From positions 17,114 to 64,278 of the forward strand of contig PFXI01000088.1 in assembly GCA_002791575.1 (NCBI GenBank): DNA of 47,165 bases, in the 5' to 3' direction. The notes beneath the pieces are model-generated. The model was given only the letters and a program-made list of their open reading frames with translations. It made no database searches and had not been told where the DNA came from. Of the stretch, positions 11,824 to 46,546 are shown one piece after another. The DNA comes from Zetaproteobacteria bacterium CG_4_9_14_3_um_filter_54_145. GTDB lineage: Bacteria > Pseudomonadota > Zetaproteobacteria > Mariprofundales > Mariprofundaceae. Position 1 is the first letter of the stretch, and every line of letters starts with the position of its first letter. A program made the position numbers and the translations under genes.

Positions 11824-12741
11824 ATGTCCCGTTTATTGTTAACCACGCTATTTCTAGCTTTTCTCCATGCATCAACGGCTGTTGCCGCTGACACGCAAAC
11901 AGACGATCCGCTCAGCGGGCGCTCCGTTCAGGATGAAGGGCGCATGGAAAAATCATCCCGACTCATTTCAAATGCATTCTTCAACCTCGATGACGACCTG
12001 AAAGGCATTGCACTCTATCCGATCGAACATACCAGAGAGACACTGTTTTTTCTCGGCGGCATCGGGGCGTTAGTTGCTGTCGACAAGCCGGTCACACGTT
12101 ATTATCAGGACAAAGTGGAACCAGTGTTCAACGGCTATACAATAAAAACACCTGGCTGGGGAGCAAACCTGGGCTTGAACGGGGCCGACAGCTATCTGGT
12201 CGCCGGCATAGCCGGCTCTTATGCGCTTGGCATCGCATTCAATGATGAAAAATCGCAGCAAGCGGCGCTGCTGGCCACCAAGGCAAGCATCTACTCCATC
12301 ATGCTGTCACATCTGTTGCTGAAAGCGATCACCGGCAGACAGCGCCCCGTATCAAACCTGAGCACAGCCACAGGCGACAAGCCACCCTTTACAACCGACC
12401 CCTACGCATTCGGTCACTTCACCAAGCCCACACTGGGTTCATTCTCTGGCGGCAGTTCGATGCCATCCTATCATTTCACCCAGTACTTTGCCGTGGCGCG
12501 GGTCTATGCCAAAGTCTACGACAACTATCTTATCCCCTACGGTGTTGCCGCAGCCCTCTTGACTGCAGATATCAAAAGTCATCGCCACTGGGTCGCCGAC
12601 ATGGTGGCCGGCGCGTTGATCGGCACGATGATCGGCAGCGTTGTCGCCGGCAATGCAGAGGATACAACTGCGTCCACCACCATGGTGTTCCCCGCTTACA
12701 GTGGTGAACAGATTTCGCTGAATATCTACCATCAATTCTGA
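11824..12741 (+). CDS. PAP2-superfamily phosphatase, exported
   Basis: A membrane-associated lipid or diphosphate phosphatase of the PAP2 family. The 305-residue protein has a signal peptide ending near Ala22 (ASTAVAAD). The three PAP2 motifs are present: KAITGRQRP (about 174-182), PSYHFT in place of the usual PSGHT, and SHRHWVAD carrying the motif-3 histidine. The glycine-to-tyrosine change in motif 2 occurs in some subfamilies, and the catalytic histidines remain. Hydrophobic helices lie near 68-84, 124-140 and 232-275. It has its own promoter with an operator-like repeat and ends convergent with the FAD reductase. The substrate is unknown; undecaprenyl or phosphatidate phosphates are possible. 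Confidence 0.85.
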   Translation: MSRLLLTTLFLAFLHASTAVAADTQTDDPLSGRSVQDEGRMEKSSRLISNAFFNLDDDLKGIALYPIEHTRETLFFLGGIGALVAVDKPVTRYYQDKVEPVFNGYTIKTPGWGANLGLNGADSYLVAGIAGSYALGIAFNDEKSQQAALLATKASIYSIMLSHLLLKAITGRQRPVSNLSTATGDKPPFTTDPYAFGHFTKPTLGSFSGGSSMPSYHFTQYFAVARVYAKVYDNYLIPYGVAAALLTADIKSHRHWVADMVAGALIGTMIGSVVAGNAEDTTASTTMVFPAYSGEQISLNIYHQF

Positions 12742-40246: not shown

Positions 40247-40642
40247 ATGAAATTCAGCTTCAATATGGAAGATGCGGGTCAGGTATTTGTGGGTGCATTT
40301 GCGCTGGCAGTGCCCATTTCCTTTTCAGAAGAGGCATGGCGATTAGGAGAAACACTGCCTCTTCCTAATTTGGTTATGCTCTTCGTGCTCTCGGTTGTAT
40401 TTCTTGCCCTTTTCACCTACCAAAGTGTGTTTCAGAATAATATTAAATCCCGATTATCCGTATTCATTTTTCGCATCGTGATCGCCTACTTGATGACAGC
40501 GTTAGTTGTTGGCCTGGTTTTGCTCTGCCTGGATAAACTGCCTCTGCTGGATGACCCTATAACATCCTTGAGGCGCATTATAGTGATCTCTATGCCCGCA
40601 TCTATGGGTGCAATTATTGTCGATAGTTTTGACAAAGAGTGA
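40247..40642 (+). CDS. DUF2391/TIGR02587-like integral membrane protein
   Basis: A 131-residue protein with about four hydrophobic segments (about 14-24, 43-58, 71-93, 112-125) that resembles the TIGR02587/DUF2391 family of putative membrane proteins, mainly through the N-terminal GAFALAVPISFSEEAW region. No function is known to me. An AGGG six bases upstream supports the start. It ends nine bases before the DUF2971 gene, so the two are probably one transcript. The patch is AT-richer than its flanks, which fits transferred DNA. Confidence 0.65.
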   Translation: MKFSFNMEDAGQVFVGAFALAVPISFSEEAWRLGETLPLPNLVMLFVLSVVFLALFTYQSVFQNNIKSRLSVFIFRIVIAYLMTALVVGLVLLCLDKLPLLDDPITSLRRIIVISMPASMGAIIVDSFDKE

Positions 40643-40651
40643 GGCAGGACG

Positions 40652-41308
40652 ATGAGGCTGTACCACTTTCTGAACGAACAGTTCGGATTGGAGAGCATCG
40701 ATCGGCGGCGTCTGAAAGTCGCGAGAATCAATGAACGCAACGACCCATTTGAATTTTCAAGCGTCAATTTTGGAGATGAAGCTATCAGGCGAGCTTTTGG
40801 GGTGATGAAGCAAGATCTGGCGGCAAGGCGAGGGCTGCTGTGCTTTAGCTCCAAATGGAAAAATCCTGTCATGTGGAGTCACTATGCCGAGAAACATCGG
40901 GGCCTTTGCCTCGGTTTCGATGTCGACGATGAGTCAATTGGTGAGGTTTCGTACTCTGGCAAACGATTGGTGGTCGAGCTCGAACAGCTGAAATCTCCCA
41001 AAGAATTTCGACCCGAGGAGGCTAGGAAGCTGCTTTTCACAAAGTATGCCCACTGGAGCTACGAGAATGAGTTTCGGGCGTTCGTTACCCTTGACGAGAT
41101 GGATACAGATACCGGCCTATACTTTGCAAGGTTCTCAGATAAACTGAACTTAAAGCAGGTTATTGTTGGAGCAGAGTCGTCGATTACACGTGAACACCTT
41201 TCTGCGACACTTGGTGAGGAGCTTCGGCAAGTTGAAACATTCAAAGCCAAGCTGGCATTCAGATCCTTTTCGGTGGTCAGACAGAGGGATGCTGCACTGT
41301 GGGCATAG
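40652..41308 (+). CDS. DUF2971-family protein
   Basis: The 218-residue protein shows the DUF2971 pattern: LYHFLNEQFGLESIDRRRLKVARINERNDPFEF near the start, then GLLCFSSKWKNPVMWSHYAEKHRGLCLGFDV (about 61-92), and a C-terminal YENEFRAFV. Such proteins are frequent in accessory and defence contexts but their activity is unknown. GAGG lies eleven bases upstream. No catalytic motif is clear. It is transcribed with the DUF2391-like gene. Confidence 0.75.
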   Translation: MRLYHFLNEQFGLESIDRRRLKVARINERNDPFEFSSVNFGDEAIRRAFGVMKQDLAARRGLLCFSSKWKNPVMWSHYAEKHRGLCLGFDVDDESIGEVSYSGKRLVVELEQLKSPKEFRPEEARKLLFTKYAHWSYENEFRAFVTLDEMDTDTGLYFARFSDKLNLKQVIVGAESSITREHLSATLGEELRQVETFKAKLAFRSFSVVRQRDAALWA

Positions 41309-43194: not shown

Positions 43195-43473
43195 ATGACT
43201 GTAGCAACAGCACGCCATATTCTGGTAGATACAGAAGCACAATGCGCAGAGCTCAAGGCAGAGATTGAAGGCGGCGCAGACTTCGCTGACGTAGCCAAGG
43301 CACACTCCAACTGCCCGTCCGGCCGCAGTGGCGGTGATCTGGGCGAATTCGGCCCGGGCATGATGGTGCCGGAGTTCGACAAGGTCGTATTTTCCGCCGA
43401 AGTAGGCACCGTACAGGGGCCGGTTAAAACCCAGTTCGGTTATCACCTGCTGGAAGTCACCAGCCGCAGCTAA
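43195..43473 (+). CDS. ppiC: Parvulin-type peptidyl-prolyl isomerase
   Basis: A free-standing rotamase of 92 residues, the size of E. coli PpiC (93). The parvulin features TARHILVDTEAQC, FADVAKAHSNCPSGRSGGDLGEFGPGMMVPEFD and FGYHLLEV (in that order) are all present; catalytic His and Phe sites match. No signal peptide, so it is cytoplasmic. GAGG lies before the ATG at a normal distance. It is followed by a strong terminator. Confidence 0.96.
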   Translation: MTVATARHILVDTEAQCAELKAEIEGGADFADVAKAHSNCPSGRSGGDLGEFGPGMMVPEFDKVVFSAEVGTVQGPVKTQFGYHLLEVTSRS

Positions 43474-43483
43474 ACAGTGTAAG

Positions 43484-43514
43484 CGGACGGGGCGGTTATC
43501 GCCCTGTCCGTTTG
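43484..43514 (+). terminator. Rho-independent terminator after ppiC
   Basis: An 11-bp stem (CGGACGGGGCG at 43484-43494 with CGCCCTGTCCG at 43500-43510, one G-U pair), loop GTTAT, followed by TTTG. Confidence 0.8.
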
Positions 43515-43516
43515 TC

Positions 43517-43732
43517 TCACTGCTTTTTCATCCCTTGCAACCGTGCTAAAACACAGCTGCACAGATCACCATAGAGCGCCATCGCCTTGCCATTCGGCCA
43601 GTAAATGCGGACGATTTCACCCCTCTCATCCCGGCGCAGTGTAATAATCGGGGCGGCTATATCAGTCTCAATTGACGTCGCCCATGCACCCTCTTCGCTT
43701 AACAGATGACCACGAAGCAGCAGAGGCGTGAG
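43517..43732 (-). other. Protein-like open frame without a start codon
   Basis: A 71-codon frame on the minus strand begins right after an in-frame TGA (43735-43733) and ends at TGA 43519-43517. It has no ATG, GTG or TTG near its start (the first ATG is late), yet the translation reads like a protein (for example IITLRRDERGEIVRIYWPNGK). It may be a remnant of a gene that lost its front, a small gene with a rare start codon, or chance. It follows the receiver-GGDEF-EAL gene. Confidence 0.35.
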
Positions 43733-43742
43733 TCAGCCCGAT

Positions 43743-45884
43743 TCAGCCATCCAGCATTGATTTTCTCTCTTTCAGTTGCAGGGCAATAGCATCGGCCGGC
43801 AGCGGCGGGCTGGAGAGATAGCCCAGCATCCCGTCGGAATCATGATCGCGCAGGAACTGTAATTGATCGCTGGTCTCCACACCTTCCGCGACCACCTGAT
43901 GATTGAGGATATGGCCCATGGCGATAATGGCATTGGCAATCTGGCCGCTGTCGCTCTCCTGCCCGATCTGGTTGACCAGTGAGCGGTTCATCTTCAATTC
44001 GTGGATGGCCATACTCTTCAGCGACTGCAGCGAGAAAAAACCGGAGCCGAAATTATCGATGGTTATTTTCACGCCCAGCGCATTCAACTCGTTCATGGTT
44101 TGTGAGACGGCAGCACCATGCAGCATCAGGTCCCCTTCACTGATCTCCAGCTCAAGCATGCCGGCATCAAGCCGGCTCTGCTGCAAAATGCGCATCACCA
44201 GATCCTTGAAGCCGGCATGCCTTAACTGCTCGGCCGTCACATTCACCGATACCGGCACAATGGGCAGTCCGGCCTCCTGCCATGTCCGATTCTGCCGGCA
44301 GGCATGGCGCAGCACCCATTCACCAATCGCCACAATCAGCCCGGTCCTGTTGGCCAGCGGCAGGAACTGGTCGGGCATGACAATGCCCGCATCGCCCCTG
44401 TCCCAGCGCAACAGGGCATGCGTACCGGTAATCAGGCCATGCTTCAGATCAACCTTGGGCTGGTAATAGACCACCAACTCATCATTGCTAATAGCCTGAC
44501 GCAGTGCCTTTTCCAGATCCAGCTCATCATCCCGCCCGCCGACCACGCCCTCAGCGTCGCCCCGGAAAACGCAGTAACGGTTGCGCCCCATCTCCTTGGC
44601 CTGATACATCGCGGCATCCGCCAGCCGCATAAAGGTTTCCGTATCGCTGTAGTCATGCGTCTCAACGCAGATACCAATGCTGATGCCGAGCACATAACGA
44701 CTCTCCTTGAGTATCATCGGCTCCTGAATGACGGCAATAATCTTGTCGGCGAGTGTGCAGGCGGACTGTTCCGAACCGATATCACCGAGAATAATACTGA
44801 ACTCATCGCCGCCGATCCTGGCCAGCGTATCGGTTTCACGAATACAACCGAGCAGCCTTCTGCCGACTTCAATAAGGGCCTTATCGCCCCACTCATGACC
44901 AAGCTCATCGTTGATCGGCTTGAAGTAATCCAGATCCATGAACAGCACTGCCATCGCTGTCTGACTGCGACGGGCTTGTGCAATAGCCTGTTTCAGGCGG
45001 TCATAGTAGAGGCTGCGGTTGGGCAGGCCAGTGAGCAGGTCCGTATAGGCCATCTGCGTAATTTTTTCCTCATTCTGCTTATGCTCGGAGATGTCGGCGA
45101 TAAAACCGAGAAACTCCAGCTGTCCATGTTGATCCTTCGCCAGCCTGACCTCATCACCTACCCAAAAATAGTGGCCATCCTTGTGCTGAAAACGGTATTC
45201 AAAACGATTACTGCCCTGCTCAACGGCACGCTGCAGCTCACTGCATACATGCTCGAGATCCTCCGGGTGAACGCAGTCCAGACGAAAACGAGGCTCACTG
45301 GTGAACGTCTCAGCATCATAGCCGCAGAGCCGCATCACATTATCGCTGATAAATGTCGTGGCGAAATCTTGCGAAATATTCGAGGCATAAATAACAGCCG
45401 CCGTTGATGTAAGCAGGAAATTCAAACGCTCATTGGCTTTGCGTATCTGTGTTTCACTCTGCTGCAACCGCTGATAGATCGCCTGAAAATCCTGCAGACG
45501 CTGGTTCTCCTGCTGCAGCGCGCGAAAATCCAGCCAGTGTTTAACGCTATGCACCAGCTCATGCGGATTGACCGGTTTTTCAAGGTATTCCACGGCTCCC
45601 TGACGCAGGGCATCAATGGTGTTCTCCTTGTCGGCAAAACCGGACATCATAATCACAGGGCAGCCCGGCTGATGTTCACGGATATAGGCCAGAATATCGA
45701 GACCGGACCTGCCGACCAGCTGGATGTCGAGCAGGGCGATATCCAGCGATGAATCGATCAGTGGAATGGCCTGATCATAGCCTTCGGCTGCACAGACGAG
45801 GAATCCCGCCTGCTCCAGAAACTGACCATATGCCTCTCTGATCGATTCCTGATCTTCTACAATGAGGCTTCTGGACTGCTTCAC
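43743..45884 (-). CDS. Receiver-PAS-GGDEF-EAL signalling protein with a degenerate EAL domain
   Basis: The 713-residue protein has a CheY-like receiver (about 5-118; Asp53, Ser81, Lys103), a short coiled linker, a PAS/PAC sensor (about 150-270), a GGDEF domain with intact GGDEF at 358-362 and an RxxD product-inhibition site at 349-352, and an EAL-fold domain (about 455-700). The GGDEF domain should make cyclic di-GMP. In the EAL domain the signature glutamate is replaced (GTHALLRW, His489), the DDFG motif is D-N-F-G (Asn611), and the KIDRS motif is KMNRS (Asn633), so phosphodiesterase activity is unlikely. The start is a GTG at 45884 behind GGGGGG; no ATG is in frame. Confidence 0.92.
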   Translation of the reverse strand: MKQSRSLIVEDQESIREAYGQFLEQAGFLVCAAEGYDQAIPLIDSSLDIALLDIQLVGRSGLDILAYIREHQPGCPVIMMSGFADKENTIDALRQGAVEYLEKPVNPHELVHSVKHWLDFRALQQENQRLQDFQAIYQRLQQSETQIRKANERLNFLLTSTAAVIYASNISQDFATTFISDNVMRLCGYDAETFTSEPRFRLDCVHPEDLEHVCSELQRAVEQGSNRFEYRFQHKDGHYFWVGDEVRLAKDQHGQLEFLGFIADISEHKQNEEKITQMAYTDLLTGLPNRSLYYDRLKQAIAQARRSQTAMAVLFMDLDYFKPINDELGHEWGDKALIEVGRRLLGCIRETDTLARIGGDEFSIILGDIGSEQSACTLADKIIAVIQEPMILKESRYVLGISIGICVETHDYSDTETFMRLADAAMYQAKEMGRNRYCVFRGDAEGVVGGRDDELDLEKALRQAISNDELVVYYQPKVDLKHGLITGTHALLRWDRGDAGIVMPDQFLPLANRTGLIVAIGEWVLRHACRQNRTWQEAGLPIVPVSVNVTAEQLRHAGFKDLVMRILQQSRLDAGMLELEISEGDLMLHGAAVSQTMNELNALGVKITIDNFGSGFFSLQSLKSMAIHELKMNRSLVNQIGQESDSGQIANAIIAMGHILNHQVVAEGVETSDQLQFLRDHDSDGMLGYLSSPPLPADAIALQLKERKSMLDG

Positions 45885-46045: not shown

Positions 46046-46546
46046 ATGAGCAAGGCAGCAGGGTGGGTTGAACATCTTGGTCTGGTCAAACATCCGGAGG
46101 GCGGCTGGTACAAAGAGGTATACCGCTCGGCCGAATCTGTGGATGCGGCAGCACTGCCCGAGCGTTTTGACGGCAAGCGCTGCTTCAGCACCAGCATCTA
46201 TTTTCTGCTCAGCGGCGATGAATGCTCGCACTTTCATCGCATCAAACAGGATGAGTTATGGCACTTTTATGATGGCGACGGCTTGAGCGTGCATGTGATC
46301 GATGCTGCCGGCAACTACACCGTCAAGAAGCTAGGGCGCCATCCGGAGCAGGGCGAGGCCTTCCAGCAACTGGTGGCGGCCGGTGACTGGTTCGGTGCAC
46401 AAGTGACAAACGGTGGCTATGCGCTGGTGGGATGTACCGTTGCGCCCGGATTTGATTTTGCCGATTTCGAGATGGCAGACCGGCATGCGTTGCTGGCCCG
46501 CTTCCCCCAACACCGCACAGTCATTGAGCGGCTGAGCCGAACATGA
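46046..46546 (+). CDS. Cupin-fold protein, DUF985 family
   Basis: The 166-residue single-domain cupin shows LGLVKHPEGGWYKEVYRS near the start, SIYFLLSGDECSHFHRIKQDELWHFYDGD (His-rich beta core, about 48-77) and a C-terminal LVGCTVAPGFDFADFEMAD, matching DUF985. The substrate is not known; plausible metal-ligand histidines are in the SHFHR stretch. GGGGAG lies before the ATG. Its stop overlaps the start of the following deaminase-like gene (ATGA). Confidence 0.88.
   Translation: MSKAAGWVEHLGLVKHPEGGWYKEVYRSAESVDAAALPERFDGKRCFSTSIYFLLSGDECSHFHRIKQDELWHFYDGDGLSVHVIDAAGNYTVKKLGRHPEQGEAFQQLVAAGDWFGAQVTNGGYALVGCTVAPGFDFADFEMADRHALLARFPQHRTVIERLSRT

Follow-up and report, generated by a model that had tools for sequence, protein, structure and literature searches.

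A Mariprofundus response regulator combining a predicted diguanylate cyclase with a conserved, catalytically degenerate EAL domain

Within the window (the whole stretch of DNA analyzed here, 47,165 nucleotides of contig PFXI01000088.1), one minus-strand gene encodes a 713-aa REC-PAS-GGDEF-EAL protein that is probably a receiver-gated, response-regulator cyclase with a regulatory pseudo-EAL domain of the CfcR/DgcE kind. The host genome belongs to Mariprofundus (Zetaproteobacteria), an iron-oxidizing marine bacterium, and sits beside M. ferrooxydans PV-1 in an RpoB tree containing 18 of the 20 genomes sought (G018 and G020 gave no match). The closest named relatives of the protein are five Mariprofundus or Zetaproteobacteria records with 72-76% identity. 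All four Pfam domain matches of the protein exceed their cut-offs, and the gene, its domains and the two motifs of its cyclase half are placed as follows:

43743..45884, minus strand: REC-PAS-GGDEF-EAL protein, 713 aa, GTG start
45543..45866, minus strand: receiver domain (Pfam Response_reg), residues 7-114
45108..45356, minus strand: PAS domain (Pfam PAS_3), residues 177-259
44577..45050, minus strand: GGDEF domain, residues 279-436, canonical (Pfam and alignment)
44829..44840, minus strand: I-site RETD, residues 349-352 (R349..D352), exact
44799..44813, minus strand: GGDEF motif, residues 358-362, exact
43803..44510, minus strand: EAL domain, residues 459-694, catalytically degenerate (Pfam, 214.6 bits)

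The receiver and cyclase half retains the residues of a response-regulator diguanylate cyclase. In the receiver, D11, the phospho-acceptor D53, S81 and K103 are kept in all 14 aligned sequences (window included), and position 10, which is E10 here, is E or D throughout. The same 14 sequences keep GGDEF at residues 358-362 and R349 and D352 of the I-site; the alignment takes in two EAL-less proteins, in which the key residues of the receiver and GGDEF domains are kept as well. Residues D317, K322, N325, D326 and D334 of the GGDEF domain are also intact. With the receiver residues, the GG(D/E)EF metal and nucleotide residues and the RxxD I-site all present, the 713-aa protein is predicted to make c-di-GMP in a phosphorylation-dependent manner.

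The EAL domain departs from the active pattern at the following codons, which are listed together with retained ligand residues:

44418..44420, minus strand: His489 for the EAL glutamate (metal site M1), codon CAT
44241..44243, minus strand: Asn548, M1 ligand retained, by motif
44145..44147, minus strand: Glu580, M1 ligand retained, by motif
44055..44057, minus strand: Asp610, first DDFG Asp, retained
44052..44054, minus strand: Asn611 for the second DDFG Asp (metal site M2), codon AAT
43986..43988, minus strand: Asn633 for the KxD Asp (metal site M2), codon AAC
43824..43826, minus strand: Leu687 for the QGY Gln

The preliminary description had called the GGDEF motif and I-site perfect and had reported the His489, Asn611 and Asn633 replacements; the former are exact in 14 of 14 aligned sequences and the latter hold at the codon level, while Leu687, in place of the QGY glutamine, is a fourth loss absent from that description. 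The nine catalytic positions read HNEDNKNEL, compared to the canonical ENEDDKDEQ, and the domain, although it has the EAL TIM-barrel fold by Pfam and in the predicted model, lacks the full set of catalytic residues of an active EAL phosphodiesterase. In PA3825, as described in PMC5301497, site M1 consists of Glu39, Asn98, residue 130 and Asp160, and the Mg at site M2 is held by Asp161 and Asp183. Homology to PA3825, with positions mapped by motif, supports an EAL domain without one M1 ligand (the Glu) and without both M2 protein ligands (the two Asp), and these changes strongly suggest that phosphodiesterase activity has been lost. It is also important to note that PMC4951495 cites phosphodiesterase activity for FimX despite its small number of remaining key residues, so motif loss alone is no proof of a dead EAL domain.

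Full-length orthologues with the same output module occur in 11 of the 23 genomes of the genus, host included. Two other genomes of the genus carry an EAL-less form (G005) or a swapped form (G020), and no orthologue was found among the matches listed in the remaining ten, several of which are incomplete drafts. When the three changes first described are followed through the 11 orthologues (window included), His489 is invariant and the second DDFG Asp is never kept (Asn in 10, His in 1), but Asn633 is not fixed: nine sequences carry it, and the other two (M. ferrooxydans PV-1 and G002) have the Asp. In 9 of the 11, both M2 protein ligands are altered. Leu687 is invariant in all 11, and the first DDFG Asp (610) is kept in 10 and is Gly in M. 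ferrooxydans PV-1. Sequencing error or a frame problem can be dismissed, as the changes are common to 11 genomes. Since the His and Leu codons vary synonymously (CAT/CAC and CTG/CTT/CTC, respectively), and Glu to His requires two base changes, the simple reading is that His489 and Leu687 would represent one old event held by selection.

The EAL domain has 69-79% identity to those of the ten other orthologues; the other EAL matches listed reach at most 46% identity across the class (78 genomes) and 47% across the phylum (398 genomes). Residues were compared across 119 distinct EAL domains of the fetched loci, which were collected by query similarity and supplemented with selected loci of E. coli K-12 rather than sampled at random, with domains shorter than 200 aa left out. 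In this set, 104 domains are canonical at the nine positions, 11 are the orthologues and four are otherwise degenerate, namely LapD-like L009 and E. coli CsrD, BluF and DgcE (E. coli rows assigned by locus). Neither His at the EAL Glu nor Leu at the QGY Gln is present in the 108 other distinct domains compared. Within the sequences compared here, the residue signature appears confined to Mariprofundus; the arrangement of an active cyclase with a degenerate EAL domain is a known type, and it is the set of residue changes that is unusual.

An AlphaFold2 model built from 25 sequences has a mean pLDDT of 86 and a pTM of 0.43, the latter making the placement of the domains uncertain. TBD1265, MucR, MorA and BifA lead the structural matches. 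The modeled EAL barrel is nearest to ordinary EAL phosphodiesterase structures, aligning best with 3n3t (Z 35.9, rmsd 1.6, 255 aligned, 41% identity) and 5m1t (Z 35.6, rmsd 1.3, 247 aligned, 43% identity) and less closely with FimX (best 7lkq, Z 31.1, rmsd 2.4, 254 aligned, 22% identity; 4foj, Z 30.6), active PA3825 (Z 30.5), YahA (Z 29.4) and LapD (3pjt, Z 27.8, rmsd 2.1, 239 aligned, 25% identity). Because FimX scores level with or above active PA3825 and YahA, fold similarity is uninformative on EAL activity. The closest solved structures (39-43% identity) are the EAL domains of TBD1265, MucR and MorA, phosphodiesterases that we take to be canonical active enzymes, whereas four catalytic or ligand residues are altered in the window EAL. 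By sequence, the pseudo-EAL looks to be derived from this ordinary phosphodiesterase stock rather than from FimX or LapD.

Two plus-strand neighbors of the gene recur in several relatives:

46046..46546, plus strand: cupin (DUF985), near the gene in several relatives
43195..43473, plus strand: PpiC-type isomerase (parvulin), beside the gene in several relatives

In a comparison of the relatives' flanks with 16 window frames, cupin, PpiC, ogt and VTT are near the gene in five of the ten orthologue stretches (L016, L018, L128, L129, L130). Synteny is partial in L131 (PpiC, ogt, VTT) and L017 (cupin alone), and none of the four is near the gene in L014, L015 and L127. Pfam identified no kinase among the six neighboring proteins scanned. 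The gene and the PpiC gene are separated by approximately 270 bp in the window (43474-43742), compared to about 66-223 bp in seven relatives, and within this interval is a short frame on the minus strand that lacks both a clear start and a Pfam match. A DUF2971 protein (40652-41308) and a 131-aa ORF (40247-40642) lie inside an otherwise conserved block (40247-41308), with no match to either in the 13 stretches compared.

At the same locus in G005 (L114 6115-7488, G005:C8), the REC-PAS-GGDEF ORF ends after the GGDEF domain and sits on a long branch. No match to an EAL remnant was found in the 2.1 kb searched downstream (L114 7400-9500). Against the whole 14 kb G005 stretch, the EAL domain gave two matches, one spanning 21 residues on the upstream side of the gene (L114 5442-5504, E 0.002) and another at E 0.76, and an 11-residue EAL match (E 0.36) lies beside the G066 ORF; we take these short matches in both genomes as chance. 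As G005 is nested by RpoB among EAL-bearing Mariprofundus and shares the locus, an ancestral EAL-less state was rejected and the EAL domain appears to have been lost in this lineage, although the gene, with its long branch, may instead have been replaced. In G066, from another genus (L115 about 12018-12307, G066:C7 end), the ORF likewise ends after GGDEF, and the genome gave no EAL match at 1e-30. G066 was rejected as a simple ancestral EAL-less form, since an HTH ORF (Pfam HTH_29/HTH_28), presumably a transposase, follows directly near the contig end. G020 (L116, G020:C51) has a related REC-PAS, but the GGDEF-EAL that follows is a different one whose EAL motifs are intact; as identity is 70% over REC but 42% over GGDEF and 34% over EAL, orthology of its output half was rejected in favor of an output swap.

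When the 60 nearest of 128 GGDEF domains are placed in a tree, the GGDEF domain of the 713-aa protein falls in a 20-member clade (support 100/97) made up of 12 rows for orthologues, two of which lack the EAL domain, and of 8 EAL-less cyclases. Because the clade holds these 8, the EAL domain was probably joined onto a cyclase of an otherwise EAL-less family, loss in the sisters being a less simple account. In the EAL tree, which is poorly resolved, PV-1 and G002 have long branches (0.39 and 0.60, compared to 0.15 and 0.31 in the REC-PAS-GGDEF tree). Along with the absence of the EAL domain in G005 and G066, these branches suggest that the domain may matter little in some lineages.

The preliminary description envisaged a receiver-gated cyclase whose EAL domain binds c-di-GMP rather than cutting it, as a built-in ligand sensor. 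Its cyclase motif, I-site, receiver and lost metal ligands all stand, but the ligand sensor competes with a second live reading. Quite possibly, though at somewhat less than an even chance, the EAL domain binds c-di-GMP without cutting it and reports the product level to the cyclase, acting as a receptor of the FimX/LapD type built into a cyclase. The pocket is largely preserved: Q475, R493, N548, E580, K631, E667 and E670 are invariant in all 11 orthologues, and 7 of the 8 retained canonical pocket residues are invariant versus 109 of 236 EAL positions (P 0.02; versus polar positions, P 0.003), where the positions were chosen because the window protein keeps the canonical residue and buried positions are uncontrolled. 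In addition, the Asp to Asn changes would keep shape while removing charge, and FimX binds c-di-GMP with four of ten key residues, according to PMC3527489. However, the conservation of these pocket residues may reflect a buried, structural position, and product feedback is already offered by the I-site. All 11 orthologues have Leu in place of the QGY Gln, a residue that corresponds by motif offset to a c-di-GMP contact described in X. citri FimX (PMC7288161); LapD-like L009, CsrD and BluF, though degenerate, keep this Gln. In PV-1, the first Asp is Gly as well. In P. aeruginosa FimX, key residue 10 is kept; we take it to be the same place as the QGY Gln, and PMC3527489 assigns it neither a known function nor a role in pGpG binding.

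It is also possible, as a tentative reading, that the dead EAL domain uses no ligand and dimerizes to favor or hinder productive GGDEF pairing, in the manner of DgcE. The degenerate EAL domain of DgcE is reported to inhibit the cyclase and destabilize oligomers without c-di-GMP-binding residues (PMC6510439), and work on BlrP1 suggests that inactive EAL domains keep allosteric coupling (PMC3989770). Leu687 and the altered metal ligands likewise speak against ligand use. On the other hand, DgcE reads IPISQLDGY, with eight of the nine catalytic positions lost, whereas N, E, the first D, K and E are kept here.

Improbable by comparison is a functionless EAL domain that is merely decaying, as might be suggested by its absence in G005, its absence beside the HTH ORF in G066 and the longer EAL branches of PV-1 and G002. 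Against this, the domain appears to be under purifying selection similar to that on the receiver. Median dN/dS (NG86, with synonymous sites near saturation) is 0.121 for EAL (36 of 55 pairs usable), 0.122 for REC (37), 0.096 for PAS (12), 0.078 for GGDEF (39) and 0.347 for the GGDEF-EAL linker (10). Mean pairwise identity among the orthologues is higher for EAL (74.7%) than for REC (70.4%) or PAS (66.8%), with GGDEF at 78.7%, and the invariant His and Leu also argue against decay.

It is very unlikely that the EAL domain has been rebuilt as a single-metal sensor in which M2 is erased and M1 consists of Asn548, Glu580, Asp610 and the invariant His489, ligands that together would suit a transition metal. 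If true, such a domain in an iron oxidizer could read Fe(II) (or Zn/Mn), set c-di-GMP output and tie attachment or stalk formation to the supply of iron. This reading is countered by the Gly that replaces Asp610 in M. ferrooxydans PV-1 and by the KxD Asp that 2 of the 11 orthologues keep. Most unlikely of all is continued hydrolysis of c-di-GMP through an altered, one-metal or transition-metal site, for which N548, E580, K631 and E667 are kept, His is able to replace Glu as a metal ligand and FimX offers the precedent given above, but both M2 protein ligands are altered in 9 of the 11 orthologues, the second DDFG Asp and the QGY Gln are changed in all 11 and the set of changes is found in no other of the 119 domains compared.

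The response-regulator cyclase with a regulatory pseudo-EAL that is favored here resembles several known systems. CfcR (Rup4959) of Pseudomonas putida is described as a REC-PAS-GGDEF-EAL response regulator and cyclase whose function is abolished by D65A (PMC4951495); the likeness to the 713-aa protein is one of architecture, drawn from the published description of CfcR. CfcR has a proposed kinase, CfcA, whereas none was seen among the six neighbors scanned for the 713-aa protein. E. coli K-12 DgcE is a PAS-GGDEF-EAL cyclase regulated by a degenerate EAL domain (PMC6510439), as is proposed here, but it has a MASE1 membrane domain and three PAS domains, and its EAL domain lacks eight of the nine catalytic positions. 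FimX shares the REC-PAS-GGDEF-EAL order (PMC4951495) and a degenerate EAL domain, but its GGDEF domain is described as degenerate (PMC7288161), while that of the 713-aa protein is intact. LapD also has a degenerate EAL domain in a GGDEF-EAL pair but is a membrane receptor, and the host genome has a separate LapD-like protein (L009). The 713-aa protein thus lacks the degenerate GGDEF beside a degenerate EAL of FimX/LapD-type receptors and instead has, in one chain, the intact GGDEF and the EAL without catalytic residues that characterize active-GGDEF/degenerate-EAL hybrids of the CfcR/DgcE kind.

The proposed mechanism builds on domains, residues, conservation, selection and gene history read from sequence, from which cyclase activity, loss of hydrolysis, phosphorylation gating and the regulatory role and its sign are inferred. 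Phosphorylation of D53, perhaps with a PAS signal, would lead the GGDEF domains to pair and make c-di-GMP, with product inhibition acting via the I-site. The EAL domain would have been joined to the cyclase and then have given up hydrolysis as His replaced the M1 Glu, Asn the M2 Asp residues and Leu the QGY Gln. The pseudo-EAL would have been retained for regulation, tuning the cyclase via the EAL dimer interface, either by nucleotide sensing in the remaining pocket or by steering oligomerization. The host genome contains 41 GGDEF, 13 EAL (some partial) and 8 PilZ matches, so other c-di-GMP enzymes and receptors exist in trans. Nine of its EAL domains exceed 200 aa; seven are canonical, and the others are those of the 713-aa protein and the LapD-like protein. 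The latter, a 648-aa protein (L009:1486-3429, contig C24) with LapD_MoxY_N, a weak HAMP, GGDEF and EAL, reads E-N-E-E-H-K-S-E-Q at the nine positions and is the second degenerate EAL domain of the host genome.

The 713-aa protein offers a natural case of a phosphodiesterase domain converted to an apparent non-enzyme that is nonetheless conserved, within what is probably a functional cyclase. Sister species provide natural controls, with G005 lacking the EAL domain at the same locus and G020 joining a related receiver-PAS to a GGDEF-EAL with intact motifs, so that the role of degenerate EAL domains for cyclases is testable by domain comparison. Genome comparison has connected stalk formation in Zetaproteobacteria with c-di-GMP (PMC8250860), so the control of such a cyclase is of interest in these bacteria.
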